Part shown: positions 2,936 to 36,232 of the stretch, in pieces | Position numbering within the stretch: position 1 is the stretch's first letter | Layout: the number at the start of each line of letters is the position of its first letter | IMG/VR virus record: IMGVR_UViG_3300034521_000284 | Coordinates: 1 to 36,232 of that record | Source of the DNA: a virus | DNA length: 36,232 nucleotides | Direction: 5' to 3' (one strand) | The notes under the pieces: generated by a model | What the model saw: the letters and a program-made list of their open reading frames with translations, nothing else | What the model was told of the DNA's origin: nothing | The model's database searches: none | Position numbers and translations under genes: made by a program

Positions 2936-4855
2936 ATGGCTCTCGTATATGCAGTCCAAAACGGTAATTGGTCAAGTACTAGCACTTGGAATACGGGCTC
3001 ACTACCGACAAACGACGATGATGTCTACACCGACGGCAAGATCGTCACGATTGATATTGACCTGGTGGGACAGTATCGGCCGAAAACGCTGTATGCCAGA
3101 AGTCGTGGAACGGGAGGTACGGCAGGTGGACGATTTGAGGTAACAACGACGCGGCAGATCGGCGAGTCTGGGTATCCGGTGAATATTTATGGGCCGGAAT
3201 TGTCTGGTGCATATTACGGTTGTATACAGTTTATGGCAGCATCGCCGGATACGTTGACTGTATATGGGAATGTGTATGGGGGAAGAAGTGGTTACTGTTA
3301 CGGCATTAATAATACTAATACAGGAGCAATCTATATCACTGGTAACGTAACCGGCGGCAGTAGTAGTTACGCGTACGGCATTGGTAACACCAGTACTGGC
3401 TCGATTTACGTCACTGGTAACGTAACCGGCAGTAGTAGTTACGCGTCGTACGGCATTGGTAACACCAGTACTGGCTCGATTTACGTCACTGGCAACGTAA
3501 CCGGCAGTAGTAGTAATAGTAGCGCGTACGGCATTGGTAACACCGGTACTGGCTCGATTTACATCACTGGTAACGTAACGGGAGCAGCTGCTCCCGGCAT
3601 CTACTCACACGCCAATGGCACCCTCGTTGTCATCGGTGACTGCTATGCCGATCCTGCTCCTGCTGTTTTCTGGATTGGAAGCGCGGCCTACTGTGAGATT
3701 CACGGCAACCAATATGGTGGCACTAGTGGTGCTGCAACGGGTAGCATGGCAGTTGTGACATACAAACAAGCGATTCCGCAAGCGGCTCAATACAAAATCC
3801 GTTGTGTTGAGGCAGGCTCACAACCAGGAACCTATTCGGGTAACGTGGCGTGGCTATACGGTGCCCTTGCCGGACCTTATGGCCATCCTGCTCAATCGGA
3901 TGTTCGCTATGGTACAACCTATGGACCAGAGAACGAGTTAACCGGTACATGCCATGTTCCTCCGCCTCAATCGGTTGCTTACGGTGTGCCTGTTGACAAT
4001 ACAACAGGCACTGCAGCTTTAACACCGAGCGATATTGCGGCGGCTGTTTGGAATGCCTTACGCGCCGATTACGATGATCCCAATACATTTGGTGCTGTCT
4101 CGGAATGGGCAGGCGGAGGTGGTGTAATTGATTACGAGGCTATTGCTGATGCCGTATGGGATGAGGCACGTAATCAACATACGACCAGTGGCACATTTGG
4201 GGCTGTTTCGGAATGGTCTACTGCTAGTAGTATAACTCCGGAGCAGATCTGGACCTATACGACCCGTACACTGACCGCTGCAACAAACATCACTTCAAAT
4301 GGAAGTACTATTGATCAAACAAAACTGGCCAATCTGGATGCTGCAATTTCGACACGTTTGGCTGCTTCCAGTTACACAGCCCCGGATAATGCCTCGATTG
4401 CCGCGATCAAAGCTAAAACCGACAAGCTTACATTCAACGACGAAAACTATGTCTATGCGATTGCGGAGATAGAAGTGTCCGGTGTACAAGTCATTGTTCA
4501 GCCTCTTGCTGCTCGCGTTCAGTCCCCGACCGGCGACGGGGGGATTGTCTTTTGCTGGCAGAATGCTCAGCTCGATGCGTCGTGGACGCTTGAGAATGTT
4601 GACCTGTCTGGCGACCAGTTGGCCGTTGTGCTGTATCTGGAAACGCGGCCCGATGAAATGGTCGCCCAGTATTCCGAGGGTGATTTAACCGTTACCTACG
4701 ACCCAGGATCGAGCAGTACGCTCGTTATGTTGTCTGTGCCAGATAGCCGCGTTCCACCGCCGGGAAATTACCGGTATCTCTTATGGGATTTGACCCTTGA
4801 CCAGGTGCTTGTCAGCGGTTATGTGGTCGTACGGGCGGCACCTAACCCGACATAA
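2936..4855 (+). CDS. Repeat-rich tail fibre / adhesin
   Basis: 639 residues. The first 60 residues contain a G-N-W-S-x-x-S-T-W-N opening typical of proteins that form a beta-helix. Residues about 123-220 hold four near-identical repeats of about 25 residues (YGIGNTSTGSIYVTGNVTGS), the pattern of a right-handed parallel beta-helix. Residues about 360-430 contain two copies of an AVWxA/E...GTFGAVSEW motif common in phage fibres. The last 120 residues form a beta-rich domain (WTLENVDLSGDQLAVVLYLE) resembling Ig-like domains of fibre or baseplate proteins. It is the last gene of the late operon and its end overlaps the convergent repressor gene by 14 bp. It probably binds the host surface. Confidence 0.75.
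   Translation: MALVYAVQNGNWSSTSTWNTGSLPTNDDDVYTDGKIVTIDIDLVGQYRPKTLYARSRGTGGTAGGRFEVTTTRQIGESGYPVNIYGPELSGAYYGCIQFMAASPDTLTVYGNVYGGRSGYCYGINNTNTGAIYITGNVTGGSSSYAYGIGNTSTGSIYVTGNVTGSSSYASYGIGNTSTGSIYVTGNVTGSSSNSSAYGIGNTGTGSIYITGNVTGAAAPGIYSHANGTLVVIGDCYADPAPAVFWIGSAAYCEIHGNQYGGTSGAATGSMAVVTYKQAIPQAAQYKIRCVEAGSQPGTYSGNVAWLYGALAGPYGHPAQSDVRYGTTYGPENELTGTCHVPPPQSVAYGVPVDNTTGTAALTPSDIAAAVWNALRADYDDPNTFGAVSEWAGGGGVIDYEAIADAVWDEARNQHTTSGTFGAVSEWSTASSITPEQIWTYTTRTLTAATNITSNGSTIDQTKLANLDAAISTRLAASSYTAPDNASIAAIKAKTDKLTFNDENYVYAIAEIEVSGVQVIVQPLAARVQSPTGDGGIVFCWQNAQLDASWTLENVDLSGDQLAVVLYLETRPDEMVAQYSEGDLTVTYDPGSSSTLVMLSVPDSRVPPPGNYRYLLWDLTLDQVLVSGYVVVRAAPNPT
3302..3595 (+). repeat. Tandem coding repeats in the fibre gene
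   Basis: Four tandem units begin at 3302, 3377, 3452 and 3530 with lengths 75, 75, 78 and about 66 bp. Each starts GGCATT(A/G)..., contains ATCACTGGTAACGT or GTCACTGGTAACGT, and ends in a variable AGTAGTAGT serine tract. Units 2 and 3 are nearly identical, indicating recent expansion or homogenisation. All lengths are multiples of three, so copy-number change would keep the frame. Confidence 0.9.
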
Positions 4856-10669: not shown

Positions 10670-10927
10670 ATGACCGATCAGGAATTGGAAAAATTGTTGG
10701 CAATGGCGATGGCGATGAAAATTGAAATTTTTGTCCTACCGTTTGGGACAGTGATCGCCAGCCCGGTCGAGGAAGACGAAGAAAAGGATAAGGAAATTGC
10801 CGACGTCGTCAAGACGATCGCGAAGAATGTGACGGCGATTGTGGATTACGTAAAGCGTAATCGTGCTGCCTGGGATAAGTATGTTGCGAAAGACGCGGAA
10901 GACAAGCCTGATTACCGTCTCAATTGA
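10670..10927 (+). CDS. Small acidic helical protein
   Basis: 85 residues behind AAAGGAGGA. The N terminus is a helix with a Met/Ala repeat (LLAMAMAMKIEIFVLPFG), then an acidic stretch (EEDEEKDKE) and a long amphipathic helix (VVKTIAKNVTAIVDYVKR). The net charge is near neutral to acidic. There is no known family. The size, acidity and position resemble small phage regulators or inhibitors of host proteins, but nothing specific supports this. Confidence 0.6.
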   Translation: MTDQELEKLLAMAMAMKIEIFVLPFGTVIASPVEEDEEKDKEIADVVKTIAKNVTAIVDYVKRNRAAWDKYVAKDAEDKPDYRLN

Positions 10928-10966
10928 AAAATGGGTTTAACAGTCAAGATGAAAGGAGAAACGGCT

Positions 10967-11017
10967 ATGGCGTTGAATCTGGCGGATTTGTGGCGGAAGG
11001 TAAATGTGTGGGTTTAG
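10967..11017 (+). CDS. Possible 16-residue leader peptide
   Basis: An ATG at 10967 lies behind GAAAGGAGAAACGGCT and opens a frame of 16 codons (MALNLADLWRKVNVWV) that stops at 11015-11017, just before the binding site of the DUF3150-like gene (AAAGGAG at 11026-11032). It could be a translated leader that couples or delays the next gene, or a remnant. The good binding site is the only support. Confidence 0.35.
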   Translation: MALNLADLWRKVNVWV

Positions 11018-11037
11018 CGACACGAAAGGAGAGTGGT

Positions 11038-11901
11038 ATGGTCGAGAAAATCAGAATTCTGAAAGATATTGTCTGCATACGATTGGTCTTTCGCCGCCCG
11101 TCGATTTTCAGGAAACTTGAACCGGCTGCGTTGGCCGAAATGAAAGGGATTGACGGGTACTTCATCCGAACGCTTGTCCGGATTATTGATTCGGAAACGA
11201 TGGACGAAATTGGCCGGCTCGTCTCCAAGGCACATAAGTACCTGAAGATGAGGGATCTCCGTTATGGCAGTTTGGTCAGGAAGTTTATGAATACCTACCT
11301 CATTCCGGCCAAACTCTATGACCAGGTCCTCGAAAAACTCCAGAAGGTCGAGCAGGCGTATAACGAGCTTGCCGACCAAATGATGGAAGAATATCCGGAC
11401 ATGCGGGATCGGATTATTAAGCAGGTCGAACAGGCGAAAGCAAACGCGGAAATGGTATTGGAACTGTATCCATCTCCGGAAGAATTCCGCAAGCGGTTCA
11501 GCATGGAAATGTTGGCGTACATCATGGTACCGGAGGAGCGGTCGGCCGCCCAGGCGGCTAGCTTAGTGGACGCGATCGCGGACGGCCTCCGTAACCGCTT
11601 CAACGATTTGGTCGAGTCGCTTAATGATCGGCTTGATAAGGTCGTCAAGCAGGAAGCGAAAAAATTGAGCAAAAGCCAACTCAAGGCGATGCAGGATTTT
11701 GTGGGTCTTTTCGACTCGTTAAATGTCACGGAAGACAGTGAATTGGCCGGGCTTGTGTCTGCGGTCAAGGCGATTTTGGCCGATTACAACCCGGCTGACC
11801 TGCGGGAACCGTTGATTGCCCAACGGGCACAGGAACGGTTGGCACCGGTCGTGGACGCTTCGAGAAAACTGCGGAAATTCTGCTGGGACGATGAGAATTG
11901 A
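11038..11901 (+). CDS. DUF3150-like protein
   Basis: 287 residues, ATG 11038 behind AAAGGAGAG; the frame upstream to 10924 has no good start. The protein is almost entirely helical. The segment NTYLIPAKLYDQVLEKLQKVEQAYNELADQMMEEYPDMRDR resembles the conserved core of DUF3150 (a tyrosine/leucine-rich helix, then FxxxYP-type spacing). DUF3150 genes in phages and plasmids commonly sit close to an AAA+ ATPase gene, as here (12456). It may be a substrate or adaptor of that ATPase; this is inference. The gene ends at 11901, 23 bp before the next start. Confidence 0.55.
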   Translation: MVEKIRILKDIVCIRLVFRRPSIFRKLEPAALAEMKGIDGYFIRTLVRIIDSETMDEIGRLVSKAHKYLKMRDLRYGSLVRKFMNTYLIPAKLYDQVLEKLQKVEQAYNELADQMMEEYPDMRDRIIKQVEQAKANAEMVLELYPSPEEFRKRFSMEMLAYIMVPEERSAAQAASLVDAIADGLRNRFNDLVESLNDRLDKVVKQEAKKLSKSQLKAMQDFVGLFDSLNVTEDSELAGLVSAVKAILADYNPADLREPLIAQRAQERLAPVVDASRKLRKFCWDDEN

Positions 11902-11924
11902 GAATTCAGAAAGGAGCGTGGAAG

Positions 11925-12410
11925 ATGCCTTGCTGGACGATCCAAACGTTTGCGTGTGATATGGTGAATGTCAGGCTAGTTAAGATGACGGCCGAGTCGC
12001 TCGGTTACCACGTCAAAGAAAATGGGTCGGTATTGAAGCTCGACGGACCCGCGGGTATTATAATAATTGATTTTGCCCAAAAAGTGATAACCGGTCAAGA
12101 ATCGGCCGTCAGCAGATTGAAAATGGCGTACACCAGGTTGGCTTTGGTCGAGGCGTGTAAACGGTCGCACTGGCGATTGATCGCCAGAGAAAATGGGTGG
12201 ATCATTAGGCGGAACAACACGGCCATGACGGCGGAAATTCTGGAAGACGGAAAGTTAGCCATTACGGTTGCCGGAACGGTACCGAAAACGGATCACATTT
12301 CCGCTGATGAATTGATGGCGTACTTGGAGAAAATGCTCGGTGGTCGGTCGGTGAAACCGATTAAGGATAACCATCACCACCACCACCACACGAGTCACGT
12401 GCATGAGTAA
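11925..12410 (+). CDS. DUF1257 (Ycf35)-like protein with DUF2997-like C terminus and His-rich tail
   Basis: 161 residues, ATG 11925 behind AGAAAGGAG. The N-terminal half (ALGYHVKENG-type segment, then GIIIIDFAQ and a helix AYTRLALVEACKRSHWRLIARENGWIIRR) follows the pattern of DUF1257/Ycf35. Residues about 105-145 (MTAEILEDGKLAITVAGT...ELMAYLEKMLGG) follow the pattern of DUF2997, normally a separate small protein encoded next to DUF1257. The tail carries six consecutive His plus two more (DN-H6-TSHVHE), a natural metal-binding stretch. In cyanobacteria and planctomycetes these families are known near Ycf46-type ATPases, and here such an ATPase gene follows 45 bp downstream. The family calls are by pattern and not certain. 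Confidence 0.5.
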   Translation: MPCWTIQTFACDMVNVRLVKMTAESLGYHVKENGSVLKLDGPAGIIIIDFAQKVITGQESAVSRLKMAYTRLALVEACKRSHWRLIARENGWIIRRNNTAMTAEILEDGKLAITVAGTVPKTDHISADELMAYLEKMLGGRSVKPIKDNHHHHHHTSHVHE

Positions 12411-12455
12411 GGTTAAGGTTGTGGTTTCAGAATGAAACAGAAAGGAGAGAATCGT

Positions 12456-13928
12456 ATGAAAGCGACAACCGACATGCTGTCTGTTCTTAAGCATGCTTTT
12501 CGAGTCGGCGTCCCTCTCGTGAATGTCAGCACGCCGGACCAGCAGAACACGATCTTGAAGGTAGCCAGGGCGTTCAACGGCGACAAAACGATTGTCACCT
12601 GGAATATCGTTAGTGGATTCGAGGCGACTGCTCCGATCCCCCAGGATATTGTTGACGATGGAACGATGGGACCGGAAGCAGCGATCAACGCGATCAGGCG
12701 GCTACCGGACCGGACGATCGTCATCCTGGAGAACTTCGATTTGTTCATCGAGTCGCCGACGATCCGGCAGGGGCTGGCCCTCCTGCGGGAAGACGGGAAG
12801 GCGAGAAATAAAATGGTTATTATGTTGTCGCGTTTCCCGATGCGGCTGACGGGTCAGCTGATCGATGACGTCATTCAGCTTGAGGAGGAAATACCGGACG
12901 TTGACGAATTGAAAATGATTGTGGCTAACCTTGAGCAGGCACGTCAGGAGGCGGGCGGCGAAAATCCATTGGGTGATAAGGATATTGAGCACGTAGCCCA
13001 GCTTTTACGCGGCGTGTCGGCGTTTGCTGCCGAACAGATTGTCGCGATTAGTAGCTCCAAAAACGGGGTGGATTTTAATCAGATTAAGCGACTGCGAAAG
13101 CAGCGGATCGAGGCGGTCCGTGGTCTGACCCTGTTCGAGGCGCAAGAGAATTTTTCCAGCCTTGGGGGATTGACGGGGATTAAGGAGTATCTGCGGATGC
13201 TGTTTAACGGCCGCTGTCGGCCTAACGTCGTTGTCTGGCTTGACGAGATTGAAAAGACAGGTTTGGCGGCAACCAACGATACGGCAGGCGTTAACCGCGA
13301 CCAGGAGGGCACTCTGTTGTCCTACATGGAAGATGCCGACGTTTTTGGGGTCATGCTGCTTGGCGTGCCGGGTACCGGTAAATCGGCATTGTGCAAAGCG
13401 ATTGCGGGCGAATATCCCGACACAACGGTTATCCGGTTGGATTTGGGGGCGATGCAAGGAAGTTTGGTCGGCCAGTCGCAACAGAATCTCCGCGAAGCAT
13501 TGTCGATTATCAGATCGTTGGGTAACCAGCAGTTGTGGATCGGCTCGGCGAATAGTATCAATGCCCTGTCTGGAGCGATGCGAAGCAGATTTATTGACAC
13601 GTGGTTTTACGACTTGCCGCCGAAAGAGGAGCGAAAGGCGATTTGGGATATTTGGACGGCGAAATACTTCGGGCAGCCGGTGGACGAGGGGGCACTCCCG
13701 GACGATGAAGGCTGGGTTGGCCGGAATATCCGGCGGTGCGTCGAAAAGGCTTGGCGGTTTAATTGTTCCATTAAGGAGGCGGCTCGGTATATCCAGCCGG
13801 TTGGCCTTCTCGAAATGAAAACGATTGAGCAGCTGCGGGCTGAGGCGGATAAAAGATACCTTGACGTTAATACGGGAACGGTGTATCAGAAACCGCAGGT
13901 CGGCGGCAAGAGGCGGTTTGTCGAGTAG
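12456..13928 (+). CDS. Ycf46-like AAA+ ATPase with Walker B before Walker A
   Basis: 490 residues, ATG 12456 behind AAAGGAGAG. The N-terminal 200 residues resemble the degenerate first half of Ycf46 (PLVNVSTPDQQNTI..., DRTIVILENFDLFI, SRFPMRL, EEIPDVDEL). A linker FSSLGGLTGIKEYL leads to the ATPase core. There the motif order is unusual: a Walker B-like VVVWLDEIEK (Asp263-Glu264) comes before the P-loop GVPGTGKS (303-310), then sensor 1 Asn366 (IGSANS) and an arginine-finger-like MRSRF. I recall the same order in some phage ATPases, so it is a conserved variant, not an error. It probably remodels a protein complex together with the two preceding gene products. Confidence 0.8.
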   Translation: MKATTDMLSVLKHAFRVGVPLVNVSTPDQQNTILKVARAFNGDKTIVTWNIVSGFEATAPIPQDIVDDGTMGPEAAINAIRRLPDRTIVILENFDLFIESPTIRQGLALLREDGKARNKMVIMLSRFPMRLTGQLIDDVIQLEEEIPDVDELKMIVANLEQARQEAGGENPLGDKDIEHVAQLLRGVSAFAAEQIVAISSSKNGVDFNQIKRLRKQRIEAVRGLTLFEAQENFSSLGGLTGIKEYLRMLFNGRCRPNVVVWLDEIEKTGLAATNDTAGVNRDQEGTLLSYMEDADVFGVMLLGVPGTGKSALCKAIAGEYPDTTVIRLDLGAMQGSLVGQSQQNLREALSIIRSLGNQQLWIGSANSINALSGAMRSRFIDTWFYDLPPKEERKAIWDIWTAKYFGQPVDEGALPDDEGWVGRNIRRCVEKAWRFNCSIKEAARYIQPVGLLEMKTIEQLRAEADKRYLDVNTGTVYQKPQVGGKRRFVE

Positions 13929-14427: not shown

Positions 14428-15588
14428 ATGAGTTTGGCTTGCGTTGTTATTCCGTCGATTCGAGAGACTATGCTCCGTCAGTGGCTTGCGGAGTGGAAGC
14501 GTGACCTGTGGGACGTGACATTCACGTCGGAACTCCACGGGGATACGCAGAACTGGGGTATCCATCTCGTCATTGTCGAGGATAACCCAGAGAAAACCTT
14601 CCAGCTTGACGATGAACTTCTCGAGGGGATTGATTACGAGCACGTCAGCTGGAAGGAAATCGACGATGAGCTTGGCAAACGGAGTTGGATTATCCCCAGG
14701 CGGACGGACTGCATTAGGTCGTTTGGTTTTTATCGGGCGGCCAAGCTCGGTGCACAGGCCGTGATCACGCTCGATGATGACGTCAAACCGTATCGTGAAG
14801 ATGATGACGAGGGAACGGTCATCGAGGAGCACTTGGCGAACCTTCATATTCCGACTGCCGCGACTGCCGCGATTCCGGCCTGGACCTCGACCATTTCGCC
14901 GATCAAGGATCACGAATTAGAATTAAAGGTTAGGGGTTACCCGTATCGCCAAACGAAGCGGCAGCAACGGGTTGTCATTAGCCACGGTATGTGGACCGGC
15001 TACCCGGACCTCGATTCTGTCACCCAGCTTGTCATTAGCCACGGTATGTGGACCGGCTACCCGGACCTCGATTCTGTCGCCCAGCTTGTGGAAGGCTGGA
15101 TCGCGGAATGTTGTTACCAGCCGAAAAATCGGTATATCCCCATGGGAATCTACTACCCAATGTGCGGCATGAATCTGGCCTTTGTCCGCGAGCTAATCCC
15201 GATAATGTATTTCCTGTTAATGGGGGAATCGCGGGACGGCGAAAAATGGCCGGTCGACCGCTTCGGGGATATTTGGGCGGGCATTATCTCCAAAAAGATC
15301 ATTGATTACTTCGGTTGGGCGGTATGGTCTGGTTTTCCTTACGTCCACCATACCAGAATGTCTGACGTCTGGACAAACTTCGAGAAAGAACGGGTTGCCA
15401 TCCGGATCAATGAGGACTTTTGGAAGGTCGTCGATGCGGTCGCTCTGTCGCGGACCCTGGCTGATTGTTACTATTTGATCGCGGGTGCAATCGGCCGCTG
15501 CACGCTCGGTGGGGAAGTACGGTATTGGAAAACGCTCGCTACGGCCATGCAAGAGTGGGTCGATTTAATTGATATGGCAATGGTTTGA
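14428..15588 (+). CDS. GT75 / reversibly glycosylated polypeptide-like enzyme
   Basis: 386 residues, ATG 14428 behind AAAGGAGGAG. The sequence follows plant reversibly glycosylated polypeptides (UDP-arabinopyranose mutases) in order: CVVIPSIR near the N terminus, LVIVEDNP, the DDD motif at 116-118 (TLDDDVKP), RGYPYR, SHGMWTGYPDLDSxxQL, YPMCGMNLAFVRELI, then DIWAGIISKKIIDYFG and SGFPYVHH. Family members bind UDP-sugars and either interconvert UDP-arabinose ring forms or glycosylate themselves. What a phage does with it is unknown; a sugar donor pathway or DNA/protein modification is possible. It contains a 57-bp tandem duplication (14974-15087), adding 19 residues compared with the usual single motif. 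Confidence 0.8.
   Translation: MSLACVVIPSIRETMLRQWLAEWKRDLWDVTFTSELHGDTQNWGIHLVIVEDNPEKTFQLDDELLEGIDYEHVSWKEIDDELGKRSWIIPRRTDCIRSFGFYRAAKLGAQAVITLDDDVKPYREDDDEGTVIEEHLANLHIPTAATAAIPAWTSTISPIKDHELELKVRGYPYRQTKRQQRVVISHGMWTGYPDLDSVTQLVISHGMWTGYPDLDSVAQLVEGWIAECCYQPKNRYIPMGIYYPMCGMNLAFVRELIPIMYFLLMGESRDGEKWPVDRFGDIWAGIISKKIIDYFGWAVWSGFPYVHHTRMSDVWTNFEKERVAIRINEDFWKVVDAVALSRTLADCYYLIAGAIGRCTLGGEVRYWKTLATAMQEWVDLIDMAMV
14974..15087 (+). repeat. 57-bp tandem duplication inside the RGP-like gene
   Basis: Units 14974-15030 and 15031-15087 differ at one base (CACCCAG versus CGCCCAG), changing Thr to Ala. Each encodes VISHGMWTGYPDLDSV(T/A)QL. Plant family members have this motif once. Near identity shows a very recent event. 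Confidence 0.95.
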
Positions 15589-15605: not shown

Positions 15606-15827
15606 ATGCTAGTTTTGACCAGAAAACCCATGGAATCGATCCTGTTTTTCGTCCCGGGTAAGGGGAAGATAACCGTCACGGTTACCAGGATTCGGGGCAA
15701 ACAGGTTAGCCTTGGGATTGAATCTGACGATAAGAATATCATCGTCAAACGCTCAGAACTTCTGCAGAAGGAGAAAGAAAGGAGAAAAGCTAATGGGTCG
15801 TCTCGGGGAAAATCAAATCAGCGATAA
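15606..15827 (+). CDS. csrA: CsrA-family RNA-binding translational regulator
   Basis: 73 residues. The start MLVLTRKP is the canonical CsrA N terminus; an ATG three bases earlier (15603) is also possible, both behind AAAGGAGGA. The body follows the family through a strand pair (ILFFVPGKGKITVTVTRIRGKQVSLGIES) and ends in a longer basic tail (KEKERRKANGSSRGKSNQR). CsrA binds GGA-containing loops at ribosome binding sites and controls translation. In a phage it could act on host or phage messages, whose binding sites nearly all contain AGGA. No FliW-like antagonist is present. The end overlaps the next gene by 35 bp. Confidence 0.88.
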   Translation: MLVLTRKPMESILFFVPGKGKITVTVTRIRGKQVSLGIESDDKNIIVKRSELLQKEKERRKANGSSRGKSNQR

Positions 15828-16339: not shown

Positions 16340-17260
16340 ATGGCCAAAAAACTGCGTTCTGCACTGTCCCCAAAAAAAGACGGTAAGGCGGTCAAAACGG
16401 ATGAATTGTCGGTAACGTGGGTCGAAATTGGCGACGTGAAACCGTATGAGCGGAATCCCCGGGTTATTTCCAAGCGGGCGGTTGAAGCGGTAGCCGAGTC
16501 GATTAGGCGGTTTGGGTGGCGGCAGCCGATCGTCGTCGATAAGGATTACGTCATTATCGTTGGCCACGTTCGTTACGAGGCGGCCAAGCAGTTGGGACTA
16601 AAGAGGATTCCGGTCCACGTTGCCACTACGCTGACACCGCAGCAGGTCGCAGCGTACCGGATCGCTGACAACAAGACGAATGAGTTGACGCGGTGGGATT
16701 CCGATTTATTGGGGCAGGAGTTGGCGGACCTCCTGGCCCTTCCCGACGTCCAATTCGATTGGGTTACGTTGGGTTTTTCGCAGACTGAGTTGGACAAATT
16801 GTTTCTGGACATTGACAACGCCGAGGATCGGGAAGCACGCTACGTCAATATCGCCAAGTCGATTTTTTACCAGCCGCGAATGAGCGAACCGCCAAAAATT
16901 GAGGAGCTTTTCGACGACTCGGAGGCGGCTCCCTTGCTGGAAAAGGCCAAGGAAGTACCGGAACCACTCAGAACGTTATTGACGTATGCCGCAGTCCGGT
17001 TTGTAAGGTTTCGGTTTGACAAAATCGCAGAGTTTTATTGTCATGCCGACGACCAGACTAAGCGATTGTTCGAGGATATGTGTTTGGTGATCGTCGATTA
17101 CGACAAGGCGATTGAGAAAGGTTGGCTCCAGCTTATCAAGGGTCTGGGCGAATTGATTTACAAATCCGTTGTGGAGGGTGACGAAAATGCCAAGGAAGCA
17201 GCAAGGTCGGAAGAGGAAGACGGGGAAGACGGCGAAATCGACGACGCCGATGCCGAATAA
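16340..17260 (+). CDS. ParB-like N-terminal domain protein with conserved phage C-terminal domain
   Basis: 306 residues, ATG 16340 behind AGGAGGAG. Residues about 25-140 form a ParB/sulfiredoxin-like domain (PYERNPR...VAESIRRFGWRQPIVVD, IIVGHVRYEAAKQLGL, AYRIADNKTNEL). The second half (PPKIEELFDD, LLTYAAVRFVRFRFDKIAEFYCHADD, DMCLVIVDYDKAIEKGW) matches a domain I recall in phage proteins encoded close to DNA base-modification genes. The C-terminal tail is very acidic (EEEDGEDGEIDDADAE). It lies before a TET-associated-type glycosyltransferase and the terminase, an arrangement described for phages with hypermodified DNA. No ParA is present, so partition is unlikely. It overlaps the next gene by 74 bp. 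Confidence 0.75.
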   Translation: MAKKLRSALSPKKDGKAVKTDELSVTWVEIGDVKPYERNPRVISKRAVEAVAESIRRFGWRQPIVVDKDYVIIVGHVRYEAAKQLGLKRIPVHVATTLTPQQVAAYRIADNKTNELTRWDSDLLGQELADLLALPDVQFDWVTLGFSQTELDKLFLDIDNAEDREARYVNIAKSIFYQPRMSEPPKIEELFDDSEAAPLLEKAKEVPEPLRTLLTYAAVRFVRFRFDKIAEFYCHADDQTKRLFEDMCLVIVDYDKAIEKGWLQLIKGLGELIYKSVVEGDENAKEAARSEEEDGEDGEIDDADAE

Positions 17261-18143
17261 TTATCCCGTCAGGGAACGAGTGGGCGGCGTCTTCATCATC
17301 ACCTACAAGCGTCCTGATCCGAAGCAGCAGAAGACGCTGAAATTGCTGGAGAGTATGGGTTACAGCGGCCGGCTGAAATTGGTCCTGTCGAATGACGACC
17401 CGACGGTCGACAAATATATTGAGAACTATGGCCGCGATAGGGTCTACGTGTTTGACCGTGAAAGTGTGGATTGTGATTACTTCGACAATGAGTACCCTTA
17501 CACCGGCTGTTGTGCCGTCCGAAATGCCGCCTGGGATATTGCCGCTGACCTTGGCTGGACGCACTTTCTCGTGCTCGATGATGATTACACGGCGTTAAAG
17601 TGGAACAAGCCGCTCCTCGTGCCGAAGAAAATCTGGACTGGCCCGCAGAAATGGACGGCGTTGGGCGTCTGGGAAAAGGTAAATGACTTAATGTGGGACG
17701 CCTTGGACGCGATTCCACGGCTGATTTGTGTCGGAATGGCACAAGGAGGGGATAACCAGGGGCGGGGCGTGAAAAAGCCTTGTAGACGGAAAGTTATGCA
17801 GACCTTTTACTTGCGGACGGACCGTCGCTTCCCCTTTATGGCCAGATTAAATGATGACGTTACGGGTTACTTCAACGTCAACCTTCAGGGAAGGTTTTTT
17901 ACCCTCCAGCACGCTCTTACGGTAGTTATGCAGCCGCAAACCCAGTCGCGGCCCGGAGGAGTAACGGAAGAGTACCGTAGGCTTGGAACGTACAGAAAAT
18001 CTATGTATACAATGTTGCGGTGGCCCGGGCACGTGCGGGTAAAGTACCAGCCGATGCTCGGCCGGATTCACCATTTTATTGTTCCTTTTGCGTACCCACA
18101 GATTTTGGAATCGGCCTATGGCACGTCCACGGAAAGAAATTGA
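17187..18143 (+). CDS. TET-associated-type glycosyltransferase (TAGT-like)
   Basis: 318 residues. ATG 17187 has GGAGG 9 bases upstream; the longer TTG start is less likely. After a very basic N terminus (PRKQQGRKRKTGKTAK) comes GGVFIITYKRP, a GT-A-like opening, then FLVLDDDYTAL with Asp131-133, MAQGGDNQ, RLNDDVTGYFNV and a late PGGVTEEY...GTYRKSMYTM block. This set fits the glycosyltransferases that sit near TET oxygenases in phages and transfer sugars to modified cytosines. The known reaction needs a hydroxymethylated base; no TET/JBP oxygenase is visible in this genome. The acceptor is therefore open: host-modified DNA, another base, or protein. It overlaps the small terminase gene by 26 bp. 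Confidence 0.7.
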   Translation: MPRKQQGRKRKTGKTAKSTTPMPNNYPVRERVGGVFIITYKRPDPKQQKTLKLLESMGYSGRLKLVLSNDDPTVDKYIENYGRDRVYVFDRESVDCDYFDNEYPYTGCCAVRNAAWDIAADLGWTHFLVLDDDYTALKWNKPLLVPKKIWTGPQKWTALGVWEKVNDLMWDALDAIPRLICVGMAQGGDNQGRGVKKPCRRKVMQTFYLRTDRRFPFMARLNDDVTGYFNVNLQGRFFTLQHALTVVMQPQTQSRPGGVTEEYRRLGTYRKSMYTMLRWPGHVRVKYQPMLGRIHHFIVPFAYPQILESAYGTSTERN

Positions 18144-18480
18144 TAAACCGTCGGTCAGAAAGTTGGCCGGGTATGGATTGACTGTCAGCGAGATAGCTGA
18201 TCTTCTCGGCGTGTCGGAAGCGACCATCAAGCGTCGGTGCAGAAAGGAGCTTGAAGAGGGGCGGGCGAAGTTGAAAGCGAATATCCGCATCCGGCAGCTT
18301 CAAGCAGCGGAAAGGGGTAATGTGGCCATGTTAATCTGGCTGGGTAAGCAGTATCTTGGCCAGCGGGATTATCCAGTCAATATCACGACGGACAATACCC
18401 GGATAATAATTGAGCATGTCGAAGACGCAAATAACACCGACGATTCACGTCAGGCTGACGAGGAAGCAGGCGCAGTTTAG
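18118..18480 (+). CDS. Small terminase subunit (putative)
   Basis: 120 residues, from ATG 18118 (MARPRKEIDKPS), overlapping the glycosyltransferase end. The segment GLTVSEIADLLGVSEATIKRRCRKEL is a clear helix-turn-helix, followed by a helical region (IRIRQLQAAERGNVAMLIWLGKQYLGQRDY) typical of small terminases of this type. The C terminus is acidic. It recognises the packaging site and stimulates the large subunit, whose gene overlaps it by 65 bp. An earlier ATG would extend the frame upstream but lacks family resemblance. Confidence 0.8.
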   Translation: MARPRKEIDKPSVRKLAGYGLTVSEIADLLGVSEATIKRRCRKELEEGRAKLKANIRIRQLQAAERGNVAMLIWLGKQYLGQRDYPVNITTDNTRIIIEHVEDANNTDDSRQADEEAGAV

Positions 18481-19681
18481 CCGGTCTGTCAAACGACGAA
18501 TTGCGTTTGTTGGGGGGCGTGGGAGCGGAAAGACATTGGCCGGAGCATACCGCACGGTCGTTAGGACGCCGGAGAATTGTCACGGCTTGATTGTCGCTCC
18601 AACGTACCGAATGCTGATGGACTTTGCCTGGCCCGCCGTCAGACGCTGGGCGATGGATTTGGATATTCTCGCTGAAGAGAAAGTTGGCCGCATGGCCATT
18701 TATTTGAGCACTGGAGCTACGCTTTACTTCCGGAGTGCCGACAAACCGGATTCCTTGAGGGGTCTTACGGTCGCTAATTGTTGGCTGGACGAGGCCAGTT
18801 TAATGGGTCGCGACGTGTTTGATACGGTCCGGTTCTGCGTTCGCGAAATCAACAACGGGTGGATCGCTGCCACGTTCACGCCGATGGGGACGAAGCACTG
18901 GACGTACAAAGAGTTTGGCCCGGACCGTGGCGACTGCGAGTTTGTTCACGCCCGGAGTTTTGATAACCCGTTTCTGCCGGCCGATTTTATCGAGGAGTTG
19001 AGAAAGACCGACCCGGGTCCGTTGGCCCAGCAGGAAATTTACGGCATGTTCGTCGATATTGAGGGGGTCGAGTGGCCGAGTGAATTCTGGGGCGATTGGG
19101 TCTTCGTTGACACGTTGCCGAATGATTTGGACGTCCGCGTCATCGCTGTTGACCCTAGTCTTGGCAAATCAGATAGACAGGGGGACTACTCGGCCATTGT
19201 GTTTGTGGGGATAGGCCGGGGGTTAATTTGGGTCGATGCCAACTTGGAACGGCGTAGTCCGGCGAAAATCGTAAGCGATACGATCCGATATTGTAACCAG
19301 TATAACCCGCATTTCGTTGGAATTGAGGCGAACCAGTTTCAGGAATTGTTAGTGCACGAGTTTGAGCGGCAGACACAAGGCCAGTTTGCGGTTAAATGGC
19401 CGACATTTAAGATAGTCAATAGGACGCCGAAATTGGTACGGATCAGGCGGCTTGGCCAGTACATTGTCCGGAGGGAATTGAGGGTTAAGCGTAATCCAGG
19501 CGGGCTGGAATTGGTCGGCCAGCTCCAGGAATTTCCACACGGCGCACATGATGATGGCCCGGATGCCTTGGAAATGGCTTTGCGGTTAATTATGGAAGTT
19601 AGCGGCGGGAGGATAAGCGATGAGTACAGCACAACCGAATCCGATCATCGAGGCGATTCAGTACGCAATGAGCTGGTTTGA
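18416..19681 (+). CDS. terL: Large terminase subunit
   Basis: 421 residues from ATG 18416 (a TTG two codons earlier is less likely). Walker A GGRGSGKT at 33-40, Walker B CWLDEA with Asp125-Glu126, and the nuclease domain with Asp246 in VDPSLGKSD, a second acidic strand in FVGIEANQF and the C-terminal HDDGPDALEMA. It packages DNA into the prohead by ATP hydrolysis and cuts the concatemer. The small subunit gene precedes it and the portal gene follows with a 62-bp overlap. Confidence 0.95.
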   Translation: MSKTQITPTIHVRLTRKQAQFSRSVKRRIAFVGGRGSGKTLAGAYRTVVRTPENCHGLIVAPTYRMLMDFAWPAVRRWAMDLDILAEEKVGRMAIYLSTGATLYFRSADKPDSLRGLTVANCWLDEASLMGRDVFDTVRFCVREINNGWIAATFTPMGTKHWTYKEFGPDRGDCEFVHARSFDNPFLPADFIEELRKTDPGPLAQQEIYGMFVDIEGVEWPSEFWGDWVFVDTLPNDLDVRVIAVDPSLGKSDRQGDYSAIVFVGIGRGLIWVDANLERRSPAKIVSDTIRYCNQYNPHFVGIEANQFQELLVHEFERQTQGQFAVKWPTFKIVNRTPKLVRIRRLGQYIVRRELRVKRNPGGLELVGQLQEFPHGAHDDGPDALEMALRLIMEVSGGRISDEYSTTESDHRGDSVRNELV

Positions 19682-28359: not shown

Positions 28360-29142
28360 ATGGCGGACGTGAATCCGGTTGTTATCGACGGTCGAGAGTA
28401 TTTTCTGGGTTGCCTGGAGCGGGTTGCCGCTCCCGGAACTGTTTACCCGGTGTTTGGGGAACGGCCGTACACGGTGCTGATTCCGCGTCAGCAGTGGCGA
28501 CCGATTGATATGGCTCCGTACGTGTCGGAGGTTTTGAATCAGCAGCGGACGAATGCGTGCAACGCGTTTGCTTCCGTCCAGTGCCTTCACGTACTCCGGA
28601 ATATTGCCGGGTTTCGTTACGTGAAGTTGTCTGCGGGCAGCCTGTATGGCCAGATTAATGGCGGAAGGGACGCCGGATCGTACCTGTCGGATGCCATCCA
28701 GGCGTTAGAGAAGACCGGCGTTTGCGACACGGCGACCGTTCCGGAGTTGGAATGGCATGTTCGTCGTTGGCCGCCTAATTGGAAGGAGAACGCGAAGAAA
28801 TATCGGGTCCTGGAGGCGTGGGACTGCCCGACCTTTGACCACATTGGGTCGGCTCTTCAGTTGGGGTTTTTGGTCAACGTCGGCATTCTCGTTGGGAATA
28901 ATTTCACGCCGGACGGCGACGGTTGGGTACCGGATTATCGAAGGGGTGGCGGTGGCCATGCCCTTTGTGCGGTCGGTATGACGTACAAACAAGGGAAGGG
29001 TTGGGGCGTCAAAATTGTGAATAGCTGGGGGGCTAATTGGGGCGTCAACGGCTACGCTATTATTCCGGAAAGTTATTTTAGGGCGTCGCCTTTTACGGAT
29101 GCTTGGGCGATGCGTGGAGTTGTTTATGGACGAAACGTTTAG
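28360..29142 (+). CDS. Papain-like (C1-type) cysteine peptidase
   Basis: 260 residues, ATG 28360 behind AAGGAGG. The full catalytic set is visible in C1 order: Gln61 of the oxyanion hole, Cys67 in QRTNACNAFA, His200 in GGGGHALCAVGM and Asn221 in KIVNSWGANWG, followed by GYAIIP. There is no signal peptide, and the first 45 residues could be a short pro-region or substrate loop. It should hydrolyse peptide bonds in a protein or peptide substrate. It lies between a secreted protein and a coiled-coil membrane protein, so it may be the lytic enzyme of the phage; processing of virion proteins is the alternative. No lysozyme, amidase or transglycosylase is seen elsewhere. Confidence 0.85.
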   Translation: MADVNPVVIDGREYFLGCLERVAAPGTVYPVFGERPYTVLIPRQQWRPIDMAPYVSEVLNQQRTNACNAFASVQCLHVLRNIAGFRYVKLSAGSLYGQINGGRDAGSYLSDAIQALEKTGVCDTATVPELEWHVRRWPPNWKENAKKYRVLEAWDCPTFDHIGSALQLGFLVNVGILVGNNFTPDGDGWVPDYRRGGGGHALCAVGMTYKQGKGWGVKIVNSWGANWGVNGYAIIPESYFRASPFTDAWAMRGVVYGRNV

Positions 29143-34814: not shown

Positions 34815-36232
34815 CGCATATCCCCTTTTTTCCCTGGTGCTGTAGAGAACAGGAAGTTACGGATTGTCCGCACTGCCTTGCCTCTGCTCCGTTTTGTCTT
34901 CGGGTGGAAATTGCCTATTTGGGCGATGTCTGCGACGGCTACGGCTACACTGGTGAATACGGCTACACTGGTGAATATTGTCCGACTTATACTGGGATTT
35001 ACTTCCTCCAGTGGTACGGAACGGCGTACCATTTTTATTATCCTGACTATTGTCTTGACCCAGGCCAAAGGTATGGGGACGGATATTTCACGATCAGGGA
35101 CGCCTGTATTTGGTCTGGGTACGTGTGCAGTCCGAAGCGTCGTTGTGGCCCGGAACCTTGCCACGAGTATGACCGGATTGCGGTTGTGATCGGGAACCGT
35201 CTTTTCAGTGGGTATGGCGGCTACGATGAGTATGTTGGGGAGTTAATGTGCAACGTCATCCTCTACGACTCGTTGCAAGCACCGTGGGGGTTGCCGGGAA
35301 TACCGTCGCCCAATTCGGCATTGGGGAAGCAGCAGGTTTTTGAATTCTTCCTGCAGACCGATAATAACGGCCAGATTAATTGCGAAACGCTGCTGGTGCA
35401 GTGCCACTGTAATGCACCGCTGACTCCGAAGTGCTTCACGACCGGTAACAGCTGTTGTAATTTACCGGCGTGCCACTTTCCTGGAATGGTACGGGTGTCG
35501 GCTTGGCCGTGCGGAGATTATTTGTCCGGTTGCCAAAGCCACCCCTGTGAATCGTGCTGTCGAGGGGCTAGGGAACCGAAAAATTTGCGGGCGACCTTGT
35601 TCAATCTGCCGTCCAGCCTTAATTGTTTAGACGGTTGGCCGCATAAAGTACCGTTGATCAACACGCCGAATTGCACGGAGAAATGCTTGTACTATGCCCG
35701 TTTTCCGTGTGTCGGGACCGACGAATACGGGATTTATGGCGAAGATGATGACATTACCGTCGAAGTTGTTCGCGACTGGGAAAAGGCGAAATTGGCCATT
35801 TCTGCGGACGTTTTTGGGGCGAAGTACTACACGGAAACGGATGATAAGTGCAGTGAATTGCAGTCGATTGAGTTGCCTTACCAGAGCGGTGATATTCTCC
35901 GTGTGGCGCCCGTTGATTCAGTGCTGCGATTGGAGGCCAACGCTGGCGGCAACACGGTGTCTGGAAATGGGTTTTACGGGATTTGTGACCAGGTATGCCA
36001 GCCACGTTATGTGATTGTGTCTGTCCGTGGTTTCACGGGGTTTGAGGCTGCCCTGAATGGTGATTATATCCTCGACGCCGGTCCGACGTGCCGGATGTAT
36101 TGGTTTGAAACGGAATACGATCCTTGGGTTTATATTGAGAATGATCCGGTTTATGGCGATTGTTATTTCACAGGAACGATGCTCTACGTGCGTAACCCGA
36201 CCGATGAGCAAGCGTCGTTCGGAGTCGATTCG
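34811..36232 (+). CDS. Cysteine-rich tail-tip protein (5' part; continues at 1-349)
   Basis: The frame is open from ATG 34811 to the window edge and continues at 2-349, giving about 547 residues. I count about 36 Cys, many in CC, CxC and CxxC arrangements between residues 10 and 260 (PWCCREQ, QCHC, CCNLPAC, ESCCRGAR), plus many Tyr and Gly. There is no signal peptide. The Cys could bind zinc or form disulfides that stabilise a tail tip exposed outside the cell. A GYTGEY unit is repeated in tandem near residue 50. The position after minor tail proteins and before a glycosyltransferase gene supports a tail-tip or adhesion role. No known domain is recognised. Confidence 0.75.
   Translation, partial: MTHIPFFPWCCREQEVTDCPHCLASAPFCLRVEIAYLGDVCDGYGYTGEYGYTGEYCPTYTGIYFLQWYGTAYHFYYPDYCLDPGQRYGDGYFTIRDACIWSGYVCSPKRRCGPEPCHEYDRIAVVIGNRLFSGYGGYDEYVGELMCNVILYDSLQAPWGLPGIPSPNSALGKQQVFEFFLQTDNNGQINCETLLVQCHCNAPLTPKCFTTGNSCCNLPACHFPGMVRVSAWPCGDYLSGCQSHPCESCCRGAREPKNLRATLFNLPSSLNCLDGWPHKVPLINTPNCTEKCLYYARFPCVGTDEYGIYGEDDDITVEVVRDWEKAKLAISADVFGAKYYTETDDKCSELQSIELPYQSGDILRVAPVDSVLRLEANAGGNTVSGNGFYGICDQVCQPRYVIVSVRGFTGFEAALNGDYILDAGPTCRMYWFETEYDPWVYIENDPVYGDCYFTGTMLYVRNPTDEQASFGVDS
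34943..34978 (+). repeat. 18-bp tandem repeat (GYTGEY x 2)
   Basis: GGCTACACTGGTGAATA(C/T) occurs at 34943-34960 and 34961-34978 with one difference in the last base. It keeps the reading frame. Confidence 0.9.
36106..36232. repeat. Terminal direct repeat, copy 2 (contig overlap)
   Basis: Identical to bases 1-127. It marks the point where the circular genome was opened, inside the Cys-rich tail-tip gene. Confidence 0.93.

Follow-up and report, generated by a model that had tools for sequence, protein, structure and literature searches.

The gene at positions 14428–15588 of the window (by which we mean the whole 36,232-nucleotide stretch analysed here) encodes a further member of the known GT75 family, which by sequence is of the bacterial rather than the plant type. 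The gene appears intact and its product is probably active. We consider it rather likely that this product is a Mn2+- and Arg-dependent NDP-pyranose mutase that supplies an NDP-furanose for glycosylation, probably of a virion or host glycan. The reading frame starts with an ATG, ahead of which lies the ribosome-binding site AAAGGAGGAG.

14428–15588, + strand: GT75/RGP-family NDP-pyranose mutase-like protein, 386 amino acids (PF03214 E 5.7e-44; model pTM 0.82)

The Pfam profile for reversibly glycosylated polypeptides (RGP, PF03214) scores 151 bits on the protein, the cut-off being 23.8. The match consists of two pieces, corresponding to profile positions 30–176 and 157–337 of 342, and these overlap in the profile because residues 184–221 form a tandem duplication. 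Searches of PHROGs and NCBIfam with the protein matched no family. All of the motifs listed in an earlier, sequence-only reading of this DNA are found in the protein, and the membership of GT75/RGP which it proposed is backed by the sequence profile, the fold and the active-site residues. Phage genes of this kind have been annotated before, since a protein of an uncultured Caudovirales phage (UniProt A0A6J5N5Z7) is already named 'Reversibly glycosylated polypeptide'; among titles and abstracts, a literature search combining that name with 'phage' returned none about a phage gene.

The protein was modelled using AlphaFold2 with 11 viral homologues, resulting in a mean pLDDT of 77.5; confidence is low (pLDDT <50) for residues 145–176 and 194–231. 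The model was used to search the PDB with Foldseek, and the highest-ranking hits were MtdL, a GT75 GDP-sugar mutase from Marinactinospora thermotolerans (PDB code: 7xpr; E 1e-18), and UAM2 from Oryza sativa (PDB code: 8cid; E 6e-18), with the next fold at 5e-5. Structural alignment with VIA-align gave Z-scores of 32.4 for MtdL (322 residues, rmsd 2.9) and 30.0 for OsUAM2, against roughly 15 (15.3) for the next GT-A folds. The predicted fold is that of GT75 and not a generic GT-A fold.

For MtdL, roles have been assigned from mutants and structures to D109–D111, R159, D195, S228/Q229, R257, D260, H287 and R289 (PMC9937993). R159 corresponds to the autoglycosylated arginine of plant RGPs and is the proposed nucleophile, D260 is the proposed general base, H287 is a ligand of Mn2+, R289 binds phosphate and R257 is essential (PMC9937993). 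The equivalent residues of the window protein were identified from an alignment of 75 homologues.

14773–14781, + strand: DDD, residues 116–118, equivalent to MtdL D109–D111, putative Mn2+/nucleotide-sugar site (alignment of 75; PMC9937993)
14932–14934, + strand: Arg169, equivalent to MtdL Arg159, invariant in 75/75 homologues (PMC9937993)
15259–15270, + strand: R278 and D281 (RFGD), equivalent to MtdL R257 and the proposed base D260 (alignment; PMC9937993)
15349–15357, + strand: H308 and R310, equivalent to the MtdL Mn2+ ligand H287 and phosphate-binding R289 (alignment; PMC9937993)

Asp194, Asp281 and His308 are, like Arg169, invariant across the alignment, and the DDD motif, R97, R278 and R310 are likewise present. 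MtdL D195 is matched by D194 and also by D213, and the places of S228/Q229 are taken by G247/M248, Gly-Met being usual for the family. Each residue needed in MtdL is accordingly either present or replaced by the family-typical one. The residues of the nucleotide site are mixed, with a plant-like Pro9 and with Thr93 and Asp94 nearer to the GDP-using MtdL, and base specificity is ambiguous from these three positions.

If it works like MtdL and the plant UAMs, the protein would bind an NDP-pyranose and Mn2+ through the DDD motif and His308, and Arg169, helped by Asp281, would attack the anomeric carbon. The sugar ring would then open and reclose as the furanose, and the NDP-furanose would be released for transfer of the sugar by a glycosyltransferase to a virion protein or surface glycan. 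We infer the mutase activity, as well as the sugar, the nucleotide and the recipient. Within this genome the best-placed recipient would be the phage's own GT4-like gene beside the tail genes.

1–127 and 36106–36232, + strand: 127-base exact end repeat (ends identical)
346–1794, + strand: probable GT4-like glycosyltransferase, C-terminal half (relatives L090 E 2.9e-15, L092 E 1.3e-4)

The identical 127-base ends, together with a 547-residue reading frame that runs across the join, indicate that the contig is a closed circular genome of 36,105 bp; within what sequence searches can detect, a gene reported here as absent is therefore absent from the genome as a whole. Its content is that of a phage genome, and genes for terminase, portal, a Mu F-like protein, capsid and tape-measure are found downstream in the window. 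In the closed genome we recognised no gene for NDP-sugar synthesis, and the host must therefore supply the substrate. Searches of viral contigs by exact pattern and with the large terminase subunit (TerL) and TAGT as queries found no second copy of this phage. Directly downstream of the GT75 gene lies a CsrA-like RNA-binding regulator (15606–15827; PF02599 E 7.9e-13). Elsewhere, a papain-family cysteine protease (28360–29142; PF00112 E 6.5e-9) is encoded among the head and tail genes, and the region 10924–13928 holds a DUF3150 protein (E 3.8e-13), one intervening gene and an AAA ATPase, a pair resembling sets of MoxR-like ATPases and their partners.

The frame at 346–1794 is a probable GT4 transferase as judged through its relatives, with L092 being clearly GT4 (PF13692 E 1e-25) and L090 weakly so, below cut-off. 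An E-x7-E motif was spotted in it by eye. Direct Pfam and PDB sequence searches gave no match, and a single-sequence model (pLDDT 36) was unusable. The gene adjoins the tail genes and lies apart from the GT75 gene; its product is a candidate acceptor-side partner of GT75 and, as recipient, a rival to TAGT. Near it, a fibre-like protein carrying a 75-bp repeat in 3.2 copies (3336–3579) is encoded at 2936–4855 and is a candidate glycosylation target.

The nearest relatives of the window protein, at about 35–41% identity, come from Acidobacteriota, Chloroflexota, Planctomycetota and Patescibacteria and from about 40 other viral contigs, the top values being 41% for viral L055, 41% for Acidobacteria L018 and 40% for Anaerolineae L019. 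Viral GT75 loci numbered 13 with the protein query alone and 37 with an alignment query, in partly overlapping sets, and a further 37 loci lie in bacterial or archaeal genomes. Plasmids from Planctomyces and from haloarchaea carry additional homologues, as do cyanophages and an uncultured phage of 595 kb. Identity to rice UAM2 is 22%, so that the description of the enzyme as plant-type does not hold and a plant origin of the gene was rejected on identity. The statement that plants are where the family is best known holds for members that have been characterised, but many others are bacterial or archaeal. On the tree, the labels virus and bacterium need six changes, suggesting several transfers between bacteria and phages in one direction or the other; the branch of the window protein is long, and none of its neighbours is firmly supported.

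The neighbourhoods of viral GT75 genes point to glycan building, not DNA modification, as the general service of the phage family: among the recognised families around them, the commonest are GT2 (25 of 157 neighbouring reading frames), GT4/group 1 transferases, NAD-dependent epimerases and methyltransferases, and other sugar-tailoring genes occur as well. Genes for a portal, capsid or protease protein are also close by, and the homologue of cyanophages S-T4 and Sf-CH8 forms part of a heptose/epimerase/transferase cluster. In five loci (L005, L009, L010, L063 and L078) the GT75 frame shares its first bases, from a few up to some tens, with an epimerase-family gene. The sugar could not be identified from these neighbouring epimerases, whose matches were scattered over several epimerase/dehydratase families with none above cut-off. 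In the related viral contigs L003, L004 and L008, the GT75 gene lies between portal and prohead-protease genes, after which comes a B12-binding radical SAM gene, as annotated in L008. A group of 13 viral GT75s (including L005, L009, L010, L063, L071 and L078) has Gln at the position of MtdL R257, and 12 have Lys at that of R289. This Gln-257 subclade, which is apparently the one with an epimerase-family gene directly upstream in several members, possibly has a changed activity.

The sequence-only reading overlooked that the SHGMWTGYPDLDSV segment is duplicated in the window protein.

14972–15089, + strand: 57-bp in-frame tandem duplication, 2.1 copies, 1 mismatch (absent from 75/75 relatives)

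The duplicated unit adds 19 residues (VISHGMWTGYPDLDSVxQL), so that the motif SHGMWTGYPDLDSV is present twice and the equivalent of the catalytic Asp195 is copied, giving D194 and D213. The repeat is near-perfect and therefore recent, and it is flanked by TTGT microhomology; such microhomology at repeat ends is typical of slippage, and the duplication looks like a recent event of this kind. The loop that bears it has 35 residues here, against 11–17 in the relatives measured, and since loop length varies among relatives the extra 19 residues may be tolerated by the enzyme. The enzyme could also be impaired, as the duplication falls in an active-site segment that is modelled with low confidence. 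We judge an assembly artefact unlikely. The array measures 118 bp and the end overlap 127 bases, so that, if the assembler's k-mer is what left this overlap, single k-mers would cover the array from end to end.

Within 3 kb of the GT75 gene lies a TAGT-like gene, which forms part of a module with ParB and terminase genes.

16340–17260, + strand: ParB-like protein, first gene of the ParB–TAGT–terminase module (PF02195 E 5.5e-10; phrog_620 E 4.8e-54)
17187–18143, + strand: TAGT-like DNA glycosyltransferase, start ATG 17187 or TTG 17169 (PF20691 E 8.8e-17; phrog_842 E 1.4e-32)
18118–18480, + strand: HTH protein, probable small terminase subunit (TerS; weak PHROG terminase small-subunit and HTH matches; position)
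18410–19681, + strand: large terminase subunit (PF04466 E 7.3e-12; phrog_2 E 1.6e-37)

The order ParB–TAGT–TerS–TerL–portal is that of Lactobacillus phage jlb1. ParB homology is found immediately upstream of TAGT in six of seven TAGT phage regions, the seventh having a short ParB piece, and the best ParB matches among phage records are largely TAGT carriers. The ParB–TAGT–(TerS)–TerL module (window 16340–19681; L079–L083, L088) occurs in phages of Lactobacillus, Haloarcula, Escherichia and Nocardia, and where these were searched no GT75 was found. Relatives of the ParB protein in other phages carry the annotation DNA methyltransferase, which suggests that the ParB domain may direct TAGT to DNA.

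The sequence-only reading had paired the two enzymes, proposing that they supply or transfer an unusual sugar for DNA or virion modification. Of this proposal a sugar role stays likely, but joint DNA modification fares poorly. It would require GT75 to provide an NDP-furanose which the neighbouring TAGT then transfers to a modified base of the phage DNA, and we regard this as unlikely. The TAGT match is solid and the two genes lie close together in one genome, DNA is glycosylated by the TAGT of T6 and solitary TAGTs are frequent (PMC13216743), and phage DNA that is arabinosylated, and reportedly also arabinofuranosylated, exists (PMC6024577, PMC13390438; the arabinofuranosylation is reported in doi 10.1038/s41589-026-02150-z, as given in the reference list of PMC13390438). 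Co-occurrence in either direction is nonetheless lacking: TAGT was found above cut-off in 0 of 34 other GT75 viral records, many of which are fragments, with one sub-threshold match, and GT75 in 0 of 6 TAGT phage records searched whole. These counts do not support TAGT as the partner of GT75, its company being ParB and terminase, and the proximity in the window looks incidental. Moreover, the closed genome gave no match to the thymidylate-synthase family (PF00303), which was matched in 9 of 14 control genomes, and none to TET/JBP, for which no control genome was matched either; on these searches no known route to a hydroxylated base is in evidence. A version in which furanosylated DNA arises from GT75 and the ParB-associated TAGT, with no recognisable phage hydroxylated-base synthase, is very unlikely.

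It is also quite unlikely that the protein is a transferase or autoglycosylating carrier devoid of mutase activity, passing sugar to its own arginine or to another protein. GT75 enzymes do autoglycosylate the conserved arginine, and some NDP-sugars yield transfer only (PMC9937993); the loss of R257 in the Gln-257 subclade further indicates that viral GT75s diverge in activity. The window protein, however, keeps R278 and all other residues tested for mutase function, except at 247–248, where it has the usual Gly-Met. Finally, the gene could be a bacterial passenger in decay, with the in-frame duplication as an early sign, as might be supposed from the near-perfect, recent repeat with its TTGT microhomology and from the single known copy of the phage. 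We find this very unlikely, as the frame is open behind a strong ribosome-binding site, the catalytic residues are all intact and the insertion falls in a loop of variable length, while the long tree branch speaks against recent acquisition. The preferred reading remains an active mutase that serves glycosylation, probably of a virion or host glycan.

Sugar-nucleotide enzymes of phages reveal the glycans that are put on virions, DNA or hosts. As of 2023 only two bacterial GT75 enzymes had been described as characterised (PMC9937993), which makes the phage branch, with about 40 examples and a subclade without a residue essential in MtdL, a useful resource for enzymology. The ParB–TAGT–terminase module of Lactobacillus, Haloarcula, Escherichia and other phages likewise offers a context for testing the substrate of solitary TAGTs.

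In comparison to known systems, the TAGT (PF20691) modules of Lactobacillus phage jlb1 and Haloarcula HHTV-2 have ParB upstream and terminase downstream as in the window, but phages of this type are without GT75. Conversely, the other phage GT75s (L008, L003, L004 and L055; 35–41% identity) are without TAGT and lie in glycan and head-gene neighbourhoods of unrelated phages. The uncultured bacterial GT75s (Acidobacteria L018, Anaerolineae L019 and Planctomycetota L020) are 39–41% identical over the whole length; unlike the window gene they lack the 57-bp duplication and are chromosomal, often near GT2 genes. MtdL shares the catalytic set of Arg, Asp, DXD and His at 23% identity, whereas the window protein has CGMN for NSQN and Pro for Thr13 and carries the 19-residue duplication. 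The plant RGPs, represented by OsUAM2, have the same family and fold and share the motifs RGYP, SHG.W and PMCGMNLAF, although the bacterial homologues are nearer (about 40%), and the position equivalent to 87 is Asp in the window protein and Ser in the active AtRGP1-3.
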